DNA from: Halobellus captivus
GTDB lineage: Archaea; Halobacteriota; Halobacteria; Halobacteriales; Haloferacaceae
DNA length: 45,440 nt
Reading direction: 5' to 3'
Assembly (NCBI RefSeq): GCF_003697845.1
Contig: NZ_RDQE01000017.1
Location: forward strand, 1 to 45,440
The notes beneath the pieces are model-generated. The model ran no database searches and had not been told where the DNA came from. It worked only from the letters and a program-made list of their open reading frames with translations. The position numbers and the translations under genes were made by a program. Each line of letters starts with the position of its first letter. The stretch's first letter is position 1. Below, piece by piece: positions 38,289-45,289 of the stretch.

Positions 38289-38361
38289 GGGCGCGTAGCT
38301 CAGCGGACAGAGCACTTGGTTCCGGACCAAGATGCCGCGGGTTCAAATCCCGTCGCGCCCG
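38289..38361 (+). tRNA. tRNA-Arg (anticodon CCG)
   Basis: A 73-nt cloverleaf without intron: acceptor GGGCGCG (38289-38295) pairs with CGCGCCC (38354-38360), discriminator G 38361. The D arm is GCTC...GAGC. The anticodon arm is CTTGG / TTCCGGA / CCAAG with anticodon CCG. The T arm is GCGGG-TTCAAAT-CCCGT with one G-U pair. CCA is not encoded. Codon CGG should be frequent in this GC-rich genome. The accessory island begins immediately downstream, and tRNA 3' ends are common integration sites; no copy of the tRNA 3' end was found later in the window. Confidence 0.97.
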
Positions 38362-38588
38362 TCATAGTTTCTGACGGGGCAGATTGGCACGACGGCGGCC
38401 GGATGTATATAAGGCGAGCCCCCAGTGACGGTTTCGAGTTCGTCACGCAGCATGACGGGGGTCGTTGCCTTCGTGCGGTTCGTGAAATACACGTGACGGA
38501 GTCGAGGTAAAGTCCTTTGGGTGGTTGATGCCATCGGACTAGCCTGCCTATTTTAACTGATAATCATCGAGAAAGATATTTCACCGTA
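38362..38588 (+). promoter_or_regulatory. Post-tRNA intergenic region with strong TATA box and palindrome
   Basis: TATATAAG at 38406-38413 is the most canonical TATA box in the window. GTGACG (38425-38430) and CGTCAC (38441-38446), 10 nt apart, form a palindrome over the predicted start at about 38436. A 14-codon ORF (MTGVVAFVRFVKYT, from ATG 38452) follows; it may be chance. A second AT-rich stretch, TATTTTAACTGATAA (around 38550-38564), is a nearer promoter candidate for the gene at 38589. Confidence 0.45.
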
Positions 38589-39629
38589 GTGGATGACATC
38601 AACTTGATGTATCGGTTCACCCCGGACGAGATCGATCACGAGCGAGCCCACCACCAAGCGGTCATTCAGGGAGCCGACGACCTGGACGTGAAGCGGATCG
38701 GTAACCTCGGTGAGCTCGCGTTCGAGCAGTTCTGTCGCGAGTACCTCCCCGTCGAGATGTGGGAGTGGGAAAACGAGGAGGCGATCCGGCGGTGTAACCC
38801 CGAGAGCTTCTCCGGACACGATTTCGAGGTGTTCGGCTACACGGTCGACGTGAAGTCCTCACGGGACGTCTCTGCCTTTCTTCCAGAGTCGCTCGTCGAA
38901 CGGGACCCCGACGACGACATCGTGGTGATGGTCTGGCACCGGGACAACGAGGACAGTCTGATGCTACTCGGGTGGGAGCGCCTCGAGACGCTGAAGTCGA
39001 AGGTCGAAACGGAGGCGGCCTTCTCTGGCGACTCCCCGGAAAAGCTCGATCACCTTGCGGCGCGACCGATGAACGAACTGCTCGATCTCGGGCCCAACAC
39101 CGCCCACATGAACCAGAAGCCGGAGAATCCGTTCTCGCCGGGGGATCGGGTGGTGAAGGCAAGCGACGCGGAGCCATCGGTGGGGATCGTCATTGAGGTG
39201 TTGCCGCCGGAACAGAACACTGGGGCATTCGGGCACGAAATGGACGGGGAAGCGGTGCGGGTCGCGTTCCCGAGTTCGCTCGACGATGGACCGGGTGGAT
39301 GGCGCGACTACCATCCCGCGATCCTCGCGTCGTACTGTGACGACCAGGATGTCAAGCTCTGGACGTACAAACATGAGAACCTCGCATTCGCGGAGAATTC
39401 ATATGTGATGGGTGACAAGGTAATCAAAACCAGCCACAACGATCCGAACGTAGCCGTCGTGGTCGAAGGCTCCGAGGAGCGCAGCGATGACAACGTAACA
39501 GTCGCATTCTTAGGTGACTTCGAAGAGGAGGATGTCTCGCCGGGGGAGCTTACAAAGCACTGTGAGGAGAATGGAATCAAGTGCTACACGTACGAGTATT
39601 CGGAGCTAGATTTCTCAACCAAAGATTGA
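38589..39629 (+). CDS. PD-(D/E)XK nuclease-like protein with two C-terminal repeats
   Basis: A 346-residue protein. The N-terminal part (about 35-135) has a restriction-endonuclease-like signature: helix GNLGELAFEQFC with E42, then D78 in GHDFEV and D87-V-K89 in YTVDVKSS, followed by VVMVWHR. The C-terminal half has two related modules, about 185-268 and 275-341, each starting PGDRVVKASDAEPSVGIVIE or MGDKVIKTSHNDPNVAVVVE and ending in a WTYKHENLAF or YTYEYSELDF motif. These look like small SH3-like beta barrels. Start GTG 38589 is used; ATG 38607 is an alternative. It is the first gene after the tRNA and may be a defence or island-maintenance nuclease. GC content is intermediate. Confidence 0.68.
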   Translation: MDDINLMYRFTPDEIDHERAHHQAVIQGADDLDVKRIGNLGELAFEQFCREYLPVEMWEWENEEAIRRCNPESFSGHDFEVFGYTVDVKSSRDVSAFLPESLVERDPDDDIVVMVWHRDNEDSLMLLGWERLETLKSKVETEAAFSGDSPEKLDHLAARPMNELLDLGPNTAHMNQKPENPFSPGDRVVKASDAEPSVGIVIEVLPPEQNTGAFGHEMDGEAVRVAFPSSLDDGPGGWRDYHPAILASYCDDQDVKLWTYKHENLAFAENSYVMGDKVIKTSHNDPNVAVVVEGSEERSDDNVTVAFLGDFEEEDVSPGELTKHCEENGIKCYTYEYSELDFSTKD

Positions 39630-39700: not shown

Positions 39701-40738
39701 ATGAGAGTATCGACGGCAAAAGAGGAACTGCTTGATAAGGGGTTACAGATTGACCACGAGCAGTTTGAACAGCTCTGTAAAATGGTGATCGAGCGTGCGG
39801 AGCCAACTCGTGAACTTGAGCTAACGCCATTCCGTGGCGATGGTGGAATTGATATTCACGCGGTCATCGATCGAGAACTGTTCCACGCACGGCTTGGCAT
39901 TCAAGCGAAGCAATATGCTTCTGGAAACACAGTCGGAGCCCGCACCCTCCGCGGATTTAAAGGCGCACTCTCAGAGCAACAGTATCACATCGGAACGGTG
40001 ATCACAACGTCCTCGTTCACTTCTGGCGCCGAGACAAGCGCAAACCAAGATTTCATTCGGTTGATCGACGGTGACCGGCTCACGGACATCATGATCGAGA
40101 GCAGTATCGGCGTCGTTACAGACGACGAGTCATACGAACTCGATCCCACGTTCTGGAGCGCGTTCGAGAAGCCGGAGCGCACCGATACGATTCCGTCACT
40201 AGAAGTACCACAGGCGGACAACTTTGATGTGATACGCACTGTCATCCAAGCAGTTGGAGTGGGTTCCGACACTAAACCCAATATCGCAGACTACGTCCGA
40301 AGACAGACAGATACGGACTCGTTTGATCCGAGGCAAGCGGATTATTACGGTATTGCCGCGTGGCTTCTCCAGTTTCTCCACAAAGAACAGGAGGTCGAAG
40401 TCGACAACCACACGATCCGCCGTTGGGGACTCACTCGCCTCGGTGAGGAATACCTCACGTACCTCGATCGTGGCAATCGAGAATCCGCAGATGATCTTCT
40501 CACACAACAGATCCGTGATGTCGAGATCATCTCCCGCGTATACGCTCAGCTGGAAGTAGACGATACTCTCTCCCGAAGTGATATTACGGAGATCCTCGCT
40601 GCCGAAACAGATCTCTCGGACTCAACCACTCGTCGACGTGCCCGCACCGTCGGACAGTGGCTCGTTCGCCTTCCAGAAATCACTACGAGCGGTCGAGGAG
40701 CCCAGCAACAATACGTTCTAGCCTCGACGCCACGCTGA
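39701..40738 (+). CDS. Mrr-type restriction endonuclease with C-terminal winged-helix region
   Basis: A 345-residue protein. The Mrr catalytic domain occupies about residues 18-130: FEQLCKMVIERAEPTRELEL, FRGDGGIDIHAV with catalytic D51, and the IQAKQY motif (Q68-A-K70), ending in an NTVGARTLRGFKGAL helix and VITTSSFT strand. The rest is helical, with winged-helix-like segments near 225-250 (VDNHTIRRWGLTRLGEEYL) and 290-335 (LSRSDITEILAAETDLSDST). It is convergent with a Dam-type methyltransferase 15 nt away, so it may be the restriction half of a restriction-modification pair. A stand-alone enzyme that cuts modified DNA (type IV) is the main alternative. Composition is AT-richer than the chromosome. 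Confidence 0.85.
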   Translation: MRVSTAKEELLDKGLQIDHEQFEQLCKMVIERAEPTRELELTPFRGDGGIDIHAVIDRELFHARLGIQAKQYASGNTVGARTLRGFKGALSEQQYHIGTVITTSSFTSGAETSANQDFIRLIDGDRLTDIMIESSIGVVTDDESYELDPTFWSAFEKPERTDTIPSLEVPQADNFDVIRTVIQAVGVGSDTKPNIADYVRRQTDTDSFDPRQADYYGIAAWLLQFLHKEQEVEVDNHTIRRWGLTRLGEEYLTYLDRGNRESADDLLTQQIRDVEIISRVYAQLEVDDTLSRSDITEILAAETDLSDSTTRRRARTVGQWLVRLPEITTSGRGAQQQYVLASTPR

Positions 40739-40753
40739 GGGATTTTCGACGAC

Positions 40754-41623
40754 TCATTCTGTAAAGTCGGAGAGGGTCTTTCGCCGTTGCTCATCTGGTG
40801 GAACGTTTGTAATGAGTACTTCCGAGACTTCCCCACGACTGCTGGCATCACTATTTATCGCACGAGTGGCGTCTACGTACCTGACCGAGAACGCGTCGTA
40901 GCCCTCGTATAATTCTACAACCGGCGGCGAATTAGAGAGAATCACGGAAACACCCATCTCTGTGAGCTCTATGACGACATCACGAAGCCGCCGTTGGTCC
41001 TCTCGATCGAATCCAGTCGCCTGATATGAGTTGAAATCCGCGGTTTTCGACACCGGTTCGTACGGCGGATCAAAATACACAAGATCGCCACTAGAAGCCT
41101 CATCGACGACATAGCTGAAATCCGTATTAAAAACTACTGTGTCTTGGAGGACACGTGATGCCTTCCGAATCCGCTGCTCTTGTACCCAATCTGGATTTGA
41201 ATACCGTCCGAAAGAGACGTTGAATTCGCCGTCACTGTTCTCCCGGTACAATCCGTTGAAACACGTCCGATTCAAGTATAATAGTAAGCTCGCCTCTCGA
41301 ACCCTCTCGTCCTGTGTTAGAGTCGACTGAGTAAGGAGCGTATTGAACTCCGAGCGAGCGTCGTAGTAGTATTCCTCCGTATGCTCGTGTGTTTTGTTCT
41401 CGGCAATGAGGGCGTCCGGTTGGTCTCGAACGATCTCATAAAACGTTGTTAACCGCGTGTTCAGATCGTTTATCGTCCCATCGTCAGGATCCTGATGAAA
41501 AAAGACAGCGCCACCTCCTACGAACGGTTCGTGATACGCCTCATATGAGATCGGAAACTGCGCTGTGATCTCTGAGAGAAGCTGGCGCTTCCCACCCGCC
41601 CATTTTAAGATCGGCTCCACCAT
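40754..41623 (-). CDS. dam: DNA adenine methyltransferase (D12/Dam class)
   Basis: A 289-residue N6-adenine methyltransferase of the alpha/D12 class. The SAM-binding start is ILKWAGGKRQLL (residues 5-16) with FVGGG at 34-38, and the catalytic DPPY is at 185-188. The family motif NRTCFNGLYRENSDGEFNVSFGRY lies at 118-141. The length fits Dam/DpnM/MboIA-type enzymes (about 270-300), which typically methylate GATC; the target here is inferred. The convergent Mrr-type nuclease suggests self-protection against restriction. The gene symbol is given for the class only. Confidence 0.88.
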   Translation of the reverse strand: MVEPILKWAGGKRQLLSEITAQFPISYEAYHEPFVGGGAVFFHQDPDDGTINDLNTRLTTFYEIVRDQPDALIAENKTHEHTEEYYYDARSEFNTLLTQSTLTQDERVREASLLLYLNRTCFNGLYRENSDGEFNVSFGRYSNPDWVQEQRIRKASRVLQDTVVFNTDFSYVVDEASSGDLVYFDPPYEPVSKTADFNSYQATGFDREDQRRLRDVVIELTEMGVSVILSNSPPVVELYEGYDAFSVRYVDATRAINSDASSRGEVSEVLITNVPPDEQRRKTLSDFTE

Positions 41624-42066: not shown

Positions 42067-43017
42067 ATGATATCTGTGAGTCACTTGCGGGTAATCTCTC
42101 AGCTCATAGATGGGGGTGACCCGGAAGTGAGTATCAGCACACTCGCTGACCAACTCGAGTGGAGTACCAGTCACGCCTCACGGGTTATCACCGAATTAGA
42201 AGCCTACGGCTGCGTCCAAACCAAACAAAGCGGTCGAGAAAAGCTGGTTTCTCTTACTGAAATCGAACCGATAGAGCAGCTCGAAGGACTCCTCACGGAA
42301 TATCGCCATATGGACCTACCGGCGCTCATCGCTGGCTCCGGATTACAAATCCTCTATTATCTTGACCGAGGACGGACGGCTACCGAATTAGCCGAGCGAA
42401 GTGGCGTTAGTCGGGCAACAGTCTACCGCCGGTTAGATGATCTCCAGCTAGTCGGTGTCATCGGGAAATCGAAATCTCGGTACCGTCTCAACGAGCCATT
42501 TACCGTATTGGCCTCGATCGCACGAGGACTGTTCCATCAGAAGCATCGCCGTGAAACAAGAGAGCACGTTGTTGGACTCAATTTCCTCTGGGAAACACAC
42601 GACGAGTATCTCTTTGCGTGCGACAGCGACATCAGCACTGAAGAATTTCATCTGACCGGACCAGCACTGTTCGGTGAGTTCGGCGTTCCACTGCTCACCC
42701 GTGACCGCCGCCACTACTTCTGGACAGATCGACTCACAGAGGTTGACCCTGTTGAGCTAGTATGCCATACTCTCTTAATCGATGATGGCTCTCGGTACCG
42801 AACGTACTGTCTGTTACTGATACAGAAACAGGATATCGATCGAACGGAACTGCGAGAGCGCGCTGAACACTATCACCCTGAGGCGACGATCGATTTACTC
42901 ACTATCGTCGACGGTCTCATTGAATACTTGGAAACCAGCGGAGAAACGACGGCTGAGCACCTCCCCGAATGGGAAGAGTTCAAGCAAACAGCTAGGGAGT
43001 ATGAGGTCACTCTATGA
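42067..43017 (+). CDS. Two-HTH regulator, putative AbiEi-like antitoxin
   Basis: A 316-residue protein with two winged-helix regions: residues about 1-70 (ISQLIDGGDPEVSISTLADQ, then WSTSHASRVITELEAYGCV) and 103-145 (RTATELAERSGVSRATVYRR, then DDLQLVGVIGKSKSRYRLN). A C-terminal domain of about 150 residues of unclear fold follows. It overlaps the nucleotidyltransferase gene by 4 nt (ATGA), with the regulator first, as in AbiE-type type IV toxin-antitoxin systems, where the HTH antitoxin represses its own promoter through inverted repeats. The repeats around this promoter fit. It is longer than many AbiEi proteins, so kinship is by architecture rather than recognised sequence. Confidence 0.75.
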   Translation: MISVSHLRVISQLIDGGDPEVSISTLADQLEWSTSHASRVITELEAYGCVQTKQSGREKLVSLTEIEPIEQLEGLLTEYRHMDLPALIAGSGLQILYYLDRGRTATELAERSGVSRATVYRRLDDLQLVGVIGKSKSRYRLNEPFTVLASIARGLFHQKHRRETREHVVGLNFLWETHDEYLFACDSDISTEEFHLTGPALFGEFGVPLLTRDRRHYFWTDRLTEVDPVELVCHTLLIDDGSRYRTYCLLLIQKQDIDRTELRERAEHYHPEATIDLLTIVDGLIEYLETSGETTAEHLPEWEEFKQTAREYEVTL

Positions 43018-43859
43018 GCTCTCGTGAACGATTCGGCCGTGGTTATATCGAGGCCGAACTTCGGAAGATCGCGGATCACCTCCAAACAGAGGTGGAGGCG
43101 TATCTCATCGGTGGTGGCGCGATGGCACTTCACCAGCCGTCTCTCAAGGACACGACCAAGGATATCGATCTCGTTGTTGTGGATGAGACGGCTCTCAGCC
43201 GCCTGATGGGCGTACTCGACGAGCTCGGCTATGAGGAGGTCACCGATCTCGATGACGAGTACGATCGGCTGGGCGCACGCCATTGCGTACGGAACGATGC
43301 CGGTTGTCAGTTCGACGTCTTTTATCGCCAGATCGCCGATAAGCTGTTCTTCAGCGACGGGATGCAAGCACGGAGCCAACAGTTTCTCTCTTCGGAGTAC
43401 TTCTCCGTCGGCCTCGTCTCGTTCGAGGATATCTTCCTGTTCAAATCCGTGGCAGAGCGCCCAGACGACATCGGTGATATGGCTACGCTCGTCCAAACGG
43501 AACTCGACTTCGACGTCATATCAGACGAACTCGAACGCCAAGTAGAGCTCTTGGGCGGGGAGTTCTTCGTCACGGTTGTCTCTGCGTCTCTGGAGCGACT
43601 CGATGAGACCGAAGGTATCCAAACGCCACTTGATGATGTCGTTCAGGATTACTATCAGCGGTACATGGAAGGATACGAGCTCCGGATACAGTTGGACGAG
43701 GAAGAACCCAAATCCGTGAGCGAACTAGCCGCTGAGTTGGGCGTTTCAGAAGAGGAGATCGAACGTCGATACGAGTATCTCCATCAGTACGGATTCGCCG
43801 AGCGAACTTCTGAGGGAATTCGGGATACGGGCAAGCACGACGAATTTACGCGATCGTAA
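43014..43859 (+). CDS. Nucleotidyltransferase-fold protein, putative AbiEii-like toxin
   Basis: A 281-residue protein with a Pol-beta-type nucleotidyltransferase core: YLIGGGAMALHQPSLKDTTK (residues 30-49), metal ligands D50 and D52 in KDIDLVV, and a third aspartate D101 in CQFDVFYR. The following helices include LVSFEDIFLFKSVAERPDDI, where the FLFKxxAxR-type motif is common to AbiEii/DUF6036-like enzymes. Unusually, the C-terminus (about 235-270, SVSELAAELGVSEEEIERRY) forms an HTH. Related toxins modify tRNA or other targets by nucleotide addition; the target is unknown. Start ATG 43014 overlaps the regulator stop. Confidence 0.78.
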   Translation: MSSRERFGRGYIEAELRKIADHLQTEVEAYLIGGGAMALHQPSLKDTTKDIDLVVVDETALSRLMGVLDELGYEEVTDLDDEYDRLGARHCVRNDAGCQFDVFYRQIADKLFFSDGMQARSQQFLSSEYFSVGLVSFEDIFLFKSVAERPDDIGDMATLVQTELDFDVISDELERQVELLGGEFFVTVVSASLERLDETEGIQTPLDDVVQDYYQRYMEGYELRIQLDEEEPKSVSELAAELGVSEEEIERRYEYLHQYGFAERTSEGIRDTGKHDEFTRS

Positions 43860-44290: not shown

Positions 44291-45289
44291 ATGTACCTCG
44301 GAATCGACGTCCACAAACGGTACGCACAGGTGGCAGTGATGGATGAGGCTGGGACGATCGTCGAAGAGGTTCGCGTCGAAAACGCGAACCTCGACGAGCT
44401 CGCCCAGCGGTACGCCGGCGCACAAGCCGTGCTTGAGGCGACCTCCAACTACTACCACATCCACGATACGCTGTCCGAGCACTTGGATGTGACCGTCGCT
44501 CATCCCAAAAAGATCACCCAGATCGCAGACTCCGACAAGAAAACCGACCGCGTGGATGCGAAAGAACTCGCGCGGATGCTCCGATTGAATTCGGTGCCTG
44601 AAAGCTACGTACCGACCGAGGAGGTCAGGGAAGCCCGCGCACTCGTGCGCGGGCGACAGACCTTGGTCGAAAACCGTACCAAGTACGCCAACAAGATCCA
44701 TGGACTCCTCTCTGATCACGGCATCACTGACGACGTGAAACCACTGAACCTAAAGGGGCGAGAGTCCCTGCGGGAACTCTCGCTCCCGGTCCCATGGGAC
44801 ACGTTACTTGAGTCGTATCTCGACCTGATCGAGTCACTCACCGAAGAGATTCAGAAGCTCGATAAGACGATCGAAGAGCGCGCTGGGTCTCTGAAGGAGA
44901 CCCAGCTGCTGATGACGATTCCCGGTGTGAGTTACTACACCGCGCTGACGATCTACGCAGAGCTAGGCGGGATCGACCGGTTTGACGGTGACAAGGAGGT
45001 CGTCAGTTACGTCGGATTGAACCCGGTGATCCGCGAGTCAGGCGACTCGCGGATCGAAGGGAGCATCTCGAAACGTGGATCAGGTCGTGTGCGATGGCTG
45101 CTCGTCCAAGCAGCAAACACCGCAGTTCATACCAGTAACGACGAGTATCTGAGCCGGTTCTACGACCGGTTAGCAAGCCGGAAGAACTCACAAAAAGCGA
45201 TCGTGGCAGCAGCTCGGAAGATGCTGGTATCGATCTACCACATGCTTGATCGGAGAGAAGTGTACGATCCACCTGGTGTGACCGCGTAG
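44291..45289 (+). CDS. IS110-family DEDD transposase
   Basis: A 332-residue recombinase of normal family length. The N-terminal RuvC-like domain has the DEDD residues D6 (GIDVHK), E49 (VLEATSNYY), D86 and D89 (KTDRVDAKELARML). A coiled-coil region (about 172-200) follows. The C-terminal Tnp_20-like domain has IPGVSYYTALTIYAELG, then YVGLNPVIRESGDSRIEGSI with the presumed catalytic serine S250, then SKRGSGRVRWLLVQAA. All key residues are present, so the element is potentially active. ATG 44291 is the natural start. Confidence 0.95.
   Translation: MYLGIDVHKRYAQVAVMDEAGTIVEEVRVENANLDELAQRYAGAQAVLEATSNYYHIHDTLSEHLDVTVAHPKKITQIADSDKKTDRVDAKELARMLRLNSVPESYVPTEEVREARALVRGRQTLVENRTKYANKIHGLLSDHGITDDVKPLNLKGRESLRELSLPVPWDTLLESYLDLIESLTEEIQKLDKTIEERAGSLKETQLLMTIPGVSYYTALTIYAELGGIDRFDGDKEVVSYVGLNPVIRESGDSRIEGSISKRGSGRVRWLLVQAANTAVHTSNDEYLSRFYDRLASRKNSQKAIVAAARKMLVSIYHMLDRREVYDPPGVTA

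Follow-up and report, generated by a model that had tools for sequence, protein, structure and literature searches.

We have found that a gene of Halobellus captivus, located in a stretch of 45 440 nucleotides analysed here as a whole (the window), encodes a protein in which a putative PD-(D/E)XK-like nuclease domain is followed by two predicted Tudor/SH3-like barrels (Table 1). Both halves resemble known folds, but none of the searched libraries names a family that combines them. Relatives of the gene occur recurrently beside defence genes as well as within archaeal virus genomes; thus, its product is probably a weapon against rival mobile DNA. We consider it best explained as a stand-alone restriction-type anti-element nuclease, used by hosts and proviruses, in which the barrels would recognise a target and the nuclease domain would cut; we put the probability of this reading at about 0.55. 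The family is real and conserved but as yet uncharacterised, and a role in defence is plausible for it. Were it to have this role, a widespread haloarchaeal gene so far listed without function would encode an antiviral nuclease that acts as a single gene in cells and in non-lytic viruses and senses its target through a fold like that of chromatin readers. Defence in archaea is described as poorly mapped in the available part of PMC12988326.

Table 1. Features of the window around the nuclease-like gene
Feature	Position	Strand	Remarks
tRNA-Arg(CCG)	38289..38361	+	Halorubrum hotspot; gene on its 3' side
TATA-like box	38575..38581	+	~26 bases upstream of ATG; read by eye
Nuclease-like gene	38607..39629	+	340 aa; ATG conserved among homologues
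N-terminal PD-(D/E)XK-like domain (putative nuclease)	38607..39116	+	residues 1-170; from alignments, AlphaFold model and fold searches
Barrel 1 (Tudor/SH3-like)	39117..39395	+	residues ~171-263; in long and short forms
Barrel 2 (Tudor/SH3-like)	39387..39626	+	residues ~261-340; not in short forms; more variable
Mrr-type restriction endonuclease, DUF7226 C-terminus	39701..40738	+	Mrr_cat 1.3e-22, DUF7226 2e-9; not a constant partner
Dam-family adenine methyltransferase	40754..41623	-	3.3e-61; TIGR00571 1.9e-81

The earlier note described an open reading frame at 38589-39629 of the forward strand, with GTG 38589 as its first codon. This frame is present in the window and evolves under purifying selection, with dN/dS of 0.05-0.13 in 15 sequence pairs from Halorubrum, the genus with the nearest copies of the gene; its start has to be moved, as GTG 38589 is, judging by sequence comparison, probably too early. 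Homologues begin at the equivalent of ATG 38607, so that six has to be subtracted from the residue numbers given then (E42, D78, D87 and K89 become E36, D72, D81 and K83). Given the conservation, with these four residues invariant, and the low dN/dS, we characterized the gene as a working one. The spacing of the TATA-like box suggests a leaderless transcript; Halorubrum homologues carry comparable A/T-rich boxes before the gene.

The four residues, which had been proposed to form a PD-(D/E)XK-like set, turned out to be invariant in all 101 distinct copies spanning that part (distinct sequences at E 1e-20, close relatives included; the divergent L040 and L041 were judged from alignment A4 instead). 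They are likewise invariant in 53/53 sequences of alignment A2 and in 12/12 rows of A4, the two divergent relatives among them. A2 contains 53 sequences, with 52 loci used; it was made without the intact L065, L066 and L068 (close Halorubrum relatives) and without 10 partial or broken loci (L098, L113, L116, L117, L118 and L120-L124), of which A3 restores L118. Enzymes of the PD-(D/E)XK type have an acidic residue in the first helix, an aspartate at a beta hairpin and a (D/E)-x-K motif on the next strand. In the AlphaFold model of the N-domain (54 aligned sequences, mean pLDDT 75.3) E36 lies in helix 26-46, D72 before strand 73-75, and both D81 and K83 in strand 78-85, a placement that we take to be that of PD-(D/E)XK enzymes.

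Fold searches with this model returned weak matches, nucleases in the majority. The influenza PA endonuclease alone accounted for 42 of the 50 VIA rows, all with Z of 4.9-5.8; the other rows included I-Ssp6803I (Z 5.8, rmsd 5.2, 110 aligned), SPARDA (Z 5.2, rmsd 3.3, 104 aligned), D212 of a fusellovirus (Z 5.0, rmsd 4.4, 106 aligned) and the restriction enzyme 3ndh (Z 5.0, rmsd 5.1, 123 aligned). Foldseek gave NaeI, HincII and SSO0001 as weak matches, with a best E of 0.12. The N-domain is, as modelled, probably a weak PD-(D/E)XK-like fold and a putative nuclease. A nuclease fold gone inactive and retained for regulation, RNA binding or as a decoy would agree with the similarity of the barrels to KOW and Tudor domains, whose ligands are RNA or proteins; the invariance of all four catalytic-type residues makes this very unlikely. 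Mean column identity across families reaches 84% in the N-domain; such conservation is unusual for an arms-race gene and counts against the defence reading.

In the full-length AlphaFold model (53 aligned sequences, mean pLDDT 78.7) residues 171-340 are folded into two small barrels similar to Tudor, Agenet, KOW and SH3-like folds. The VIA matches, which concern a common small fold, have Z up to 6.9 over 53-58 aligned residues with rmsd of 2.1-2.9 (R67 DHFR, Spt5 KOW) and include the Tudor structure 8h43 (Z 6.8, rmsd 2.2, 54 aligned); among the high-ranking Foldseek matches were proteins with tandem Agenet and Tudor domains (6ie5, E 3.1e-3). The Tudor fold is best known from eukaryotic chromatin readers. 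Sequence hits to ferlin, coatomer and Spt5 were at chance level and were dismissed.

A repeated barrel-like module at the C-terminus had been noticed from the letters, and the repeat is a true internal duplication: barrel 1 aligned with barrel 2 at a score of 107, while 500 shuffles gave a mean of 24.1 (sd 4.3) and a maximum of 46, and hhalign gave a probability of 99.6 with E 1.4e-23. In the copy of Natrinema gari (L119, 10001-11023) the same comparison scored 259 against a shuffled maximum of 49; barrels so much more alike suggest a second, later and independent duplication there. The barrels of L055 are likewise much closer to each other than usual. Mean column identity is 79% in barrel 1 (13 rows) and 54% in barrel 2 (12 rows), and barrel 2 evolves faster between Halorubrum strains. 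For some pairs dS in barrel 2 is 1.0-1.5 versus 0.4-0.5 in the N-domain (few sites), a hint that 3' ends may have been exchanged between strains.

The long form with both barrels was seen in 41/52 A2 loci, while the proteins of the other 11 are short (260-266 aa) and stop behind barrel 1; the smallest unit kept is thus the nuclease-like domain with barrel 1. We hold it possible, though doubtful, that the family is a haloarchaea-specific single-gene immune nuclease common to hosts and pleolipoviruses, with Tudor-like barrels recognising the target and barrel 2 as a replaceable specificity module, since barrel 2 is absent from the short forms near pleolipovirus genes, appears re-duplicated in Natrinema gari and may have been exchanged between Halorubrum strains.

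No family match to the protein was found in Pfam, NCBIfam or PADLOC, in line with the earlier note, which knew of no named defence protein with this layout. In PADLOC none of the 5027 models was matched at E up to 1; Pfam gave no match to Mrr_cat or Mrr_cat_2 and a chance-level match (E 0.049) to another family. In PHROGs there is a full-length match to phrog_18072 (E 1.6e-181), an entry listed without function, fold or defence link, which the protein of the pleolipovirus Halfgib1 also matches. PDB sequence searches gave no useful match and IMG/VR scans no relative. A literature search, with lookups of accessions and locus tags (Hlac tags guessed), found no paper naming the family, which does not prove that none exists; the available parts of PMC11078007 and PMC10599561 gave no information about it.

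Relatives were detected in 87/293 genomes of the order (one genome per species, E 1e-3, fragments included), and a contig scan found 65 loci, none of them outside Halobacteria; the spread is patchy and, as far as relatives were found, confined to this class. The N-domain tree is incongruent with host families: the Halorubrum group to which the window copy belongs stands beside Natrialbaceae copies (95/91) and apart from copies of Haloferax, Halogeometricum and Halobellus, which points to transfer between host families. Patchy presence, together with gain and loss of the gene alone (see below), led us to reject a housekeeping gene.

Two divergent haloarchaeal proteins (L040, 4956-6020, and L041, 905-1882) share the nuclease-like N-domain but continue into another type of C-terminus; the former matches phrog_18072 at 3.5e-15. 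Each half also has weak relatives that differ by lacking the other half. Standalone haloarchaeal barrel proteins of ~170-190 aa (L234, L235, L237 and L238) match barrel 1 at E 3e-4 to 9e-3, are without a nuclease domain and belong to no Pfam family; relatives of L235 are present in 15/79 genomes. PD-(D/E)XK-like proteins of ~190 aa from the same phylum (G404, G482, G343 and G411; perhaps Archaeoglobi) have weak profile matches (E 8e-6 to 7e-4) and share with the gene product the pattern GE...DDF...(E/D)VK...LLGW; they are without barrels. Among PD-(D/E)XK-like proteins of ~190 aa at four loci of the same phylum (L170, L171, L172 and L174) some adjoin, as read by eye, PCNA-like or exonuclease-like genes; the L170 and L172 proteins, when scanned, gave no Pfam family.

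Genes of recognised defence systems are recurrent neighbours, as had been suspected from the position of the gene. We observed an AAA_5 (McrB-type) ATPase with a 450-aa partner at five loci (L067, L068, L070, L073 and L078), an SNF2 helicase with a DUF1156 protein (L069), a type IIG-like enzyme (L097), Cas10d of a type I-D CRISPR system (L066), BREX with PDC-S11 (L034), PDC-S37 (L060) and ThiF with E2 proteins (L039); at one locus a remnant of the gene adjoins DUF1156 and a helicase. The 450-aa partner has no Pfam or PADLOC match; an EVK motif can be read in it by eye. At a threshold of 1e-8, 125 neighbour proteins from 46 loci matched 167 PADLOC models and 125 control proteins from 20 regions matched 43, in a comparison that counts models rather than proteins, contains shared-domain models, counts near-identical Halorubrum loci repeatedly, had provirus-like and broken loci taken out before the 125 neighbours were drawn, and uses ordinary chromosome regions of related genomes, not other accessory regions, as controls. 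At many loci no recognised defence gene was seen; for example, an AI-2E transporter adjoins at L083 and a chemotaxis receptor at L099.

Across 70 loci we saw no constant partner gene; with the gene left aside, no neighbour cluster is more widespread than that of an integrase (21/70 loci), with the limitation that partners shorter than 70 aa would be missed. Neighbour genes were taken from a home-made ORF picker, and defence genes among them were counted in targeted scans that covered part of these genes.

The gene, Mrr and Dam follow in that order at five loci (L060-L063 and L065), in the window, where 71 bases separate the gene from Mrr, and in pHLAC01; such an arrangement would be expected if the gene encoded a third component of an Mrr+Dam restriction-modification system. 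Still, this explanation is largely refuted and we regard it as highly improbable: in L275, L282 and L276 the tRNA site has Mrr and Dam without the gene, although in L276 both are broken, relatives of Mrr were found in 25/293 genomes (E 1e-30) versus 87/293 for the gene at E 1e-3, and most copies have other neighbours.

This site, the region of tRNA-Arg(CCG), was matched in 39/39 Halorubrum genomes. What stands behind the gene there is Mrr with Dam, an AAA_5 system or an SNF2 system. Comparison of L065 with L275 showed that the first 156 bases from the tRNA are 96% identical, that similarity resumes before Mrr, and that L065 has ~1.27 kb including the gene between the stretches common to both; thus, the gene behaves at this defence hotspot like a module that consists of a single gene. 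The tRNA-linked position stressed in the earlier note is genuine in the window and weak as a general argument: in 56 loci scanned for tRNAs, tRNA-Arg(CCG) is upstream of the gene at seven, six from Halorubrum and one from Halorarius, which makes the link mainly a Halorubrum feature. A tRNA-integrated element was rejected, as we saw no second tRNA end in the window or, with up to 1 mismatch allowed, in the whole assembly, with the limitation that the contig ends ~7 kb downstream and that the assembly is in 37 contigs.

Pleolipovirus-like proviruses, defined by two or more gene clusters of pleolipovirus type, make up 12/65 loci, and all 11 intact short forms are situated within 10 kb of a VP8-type ATPase cluster; on the tree, the short form had no significant association with provirus habitat (3 independent pairs, starred branches). 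In Halfgib1, which according to the available part of PMC7911831 was discovered by induction of a provirus that Haloferax gibbonsii carries close to a tRNA-Arg, a short form of 265 aa adjoins a cytosine methyltransferase (Dcm). This short form and the long form next to the tRNA in Halorubrum offer a natural comparison of one barrel with two.

These loci, along with the PCNA-like gene adjoined by weak PD-(D/E)XK-like relatives of the same phylum, are what one would expect of a gene with which a virus or element processes its genome (in replication, recombination, integration or packaging) and which host islands later acquired. However, among 24 pleolipovirus records matching the VP8-type ATPase only one has the gene, which is an optional extra in these viruses and not a core gene; most loci were not recognised as proviruses, and next to the tRNA in Halorubrum it is gained or lost while other genes stay as they are. 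We therefore judge such an origin decidedly unlikely. The element-maintenance role offered earlier as an alternative to defence is not supported, given the same virus count, the missing constant partner and the missing second tRNA end; for the defence side of that proposal, neither outcome named as refuting it came about, as no housekeeping family was matched and relatives do adjoin defence genes.

We infer the following course of action for a stand-alone anti-element nuclease, from catalysis and substrate to barrel ligand and antiviral outcome. The PD-(D/E)XK-like domain would cut nucleic acid, for which E36, D72 and D81 would bind a metal and K83 would serve as catalytic lysine; one or two barrels would recognise the target or trigger, which may be a protein of virus or host, DNA as such or a mark on it. 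GATC-m6A is unlikely to be the required mark where Dam adjoins, because host DNA would be exposed. No obligatory partner would be needed, so that host islands and proviruses alike could carry the gene: hosts would keep it in defence islands, and pleolipovirus-like proviruses would carry it to exclude competitors.

The same layout of nuclease and sensor could serve an abortive-infection effector, the barrels sensing infection and the nuclease cutting host DNA or RNA until the cell stops. Single-gene occurrence agrees with this, and the many broken copies (10/65 loci are partial or broken, with fragments and stops) are as expected of genes costly to carry. On the other hand, we saw no constant antidote gene among the neighbours, and pleolipoviruses are non-lytic (available parts of PMC5867852 and PMC10919331), and a virus carrying the gene would pay dearly for the death of its host; we find this explanation unlikely.

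The stand-alone anti-element reading has a precedent among the pleolipoviruses. HHPV4I, an m6A-dependent enzyme of the pleolipovirus HHPV4, is likewise an optional restriction-type nuclease with haloarchaeal relatives, and its authors suggest possible inhibition of other viruses; it is built of SRA, winged-helix and HNH domains, in contrast to the PD-(D/E)XK-like domain and barrels found here (PMC10101028, as far as available). Haloarchaeal proviruses also carry CRISPR-Cas, according to the accessible part of PMC12596717. Type IV or Mrr-like enzymes (PF04471) share with the gene product a PD-(D/E)XK-type nuclease (putative here), a separate recognition part and the lack of a constant methyltransferase; they differ in that here there is no Mrr_cat match, the nuclease is N-terminal and Tudor-like barrels replace the usual readers. 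Unlike the R subunit of a type II restriction-modification system, the gene has no constant cognate methyltransferase (Dam at some loci, Dcm in Halfgib1, and none among identified neighbours at most loci), and unlike type II toxin-antitoxin genes it has no constant small partner of at least 70 aa among the 70 loci.

Further along the window, beyond Dam, at 42067-43859 (+), a two-winged-helix protein ending in HVO_2833_C overlaps by 4 bases a DUF6036-type nucleotidyltransferase; this looks like a toxin-antitoxin-like pair, and it follows Mrr and Dam in L276 too (94-96% identity). An IS110-type transposase (44291-45289, +) is situated close to the contig end. Elsewhere in the same genome a remnant of the nuclease-like gene, its first ~30 codons at 87% identity, is found on contig C6 (9441-9530; L031, 1501-1590), ~100 bases downstream of what appears by eye to be a TnpB-type transposon gene.
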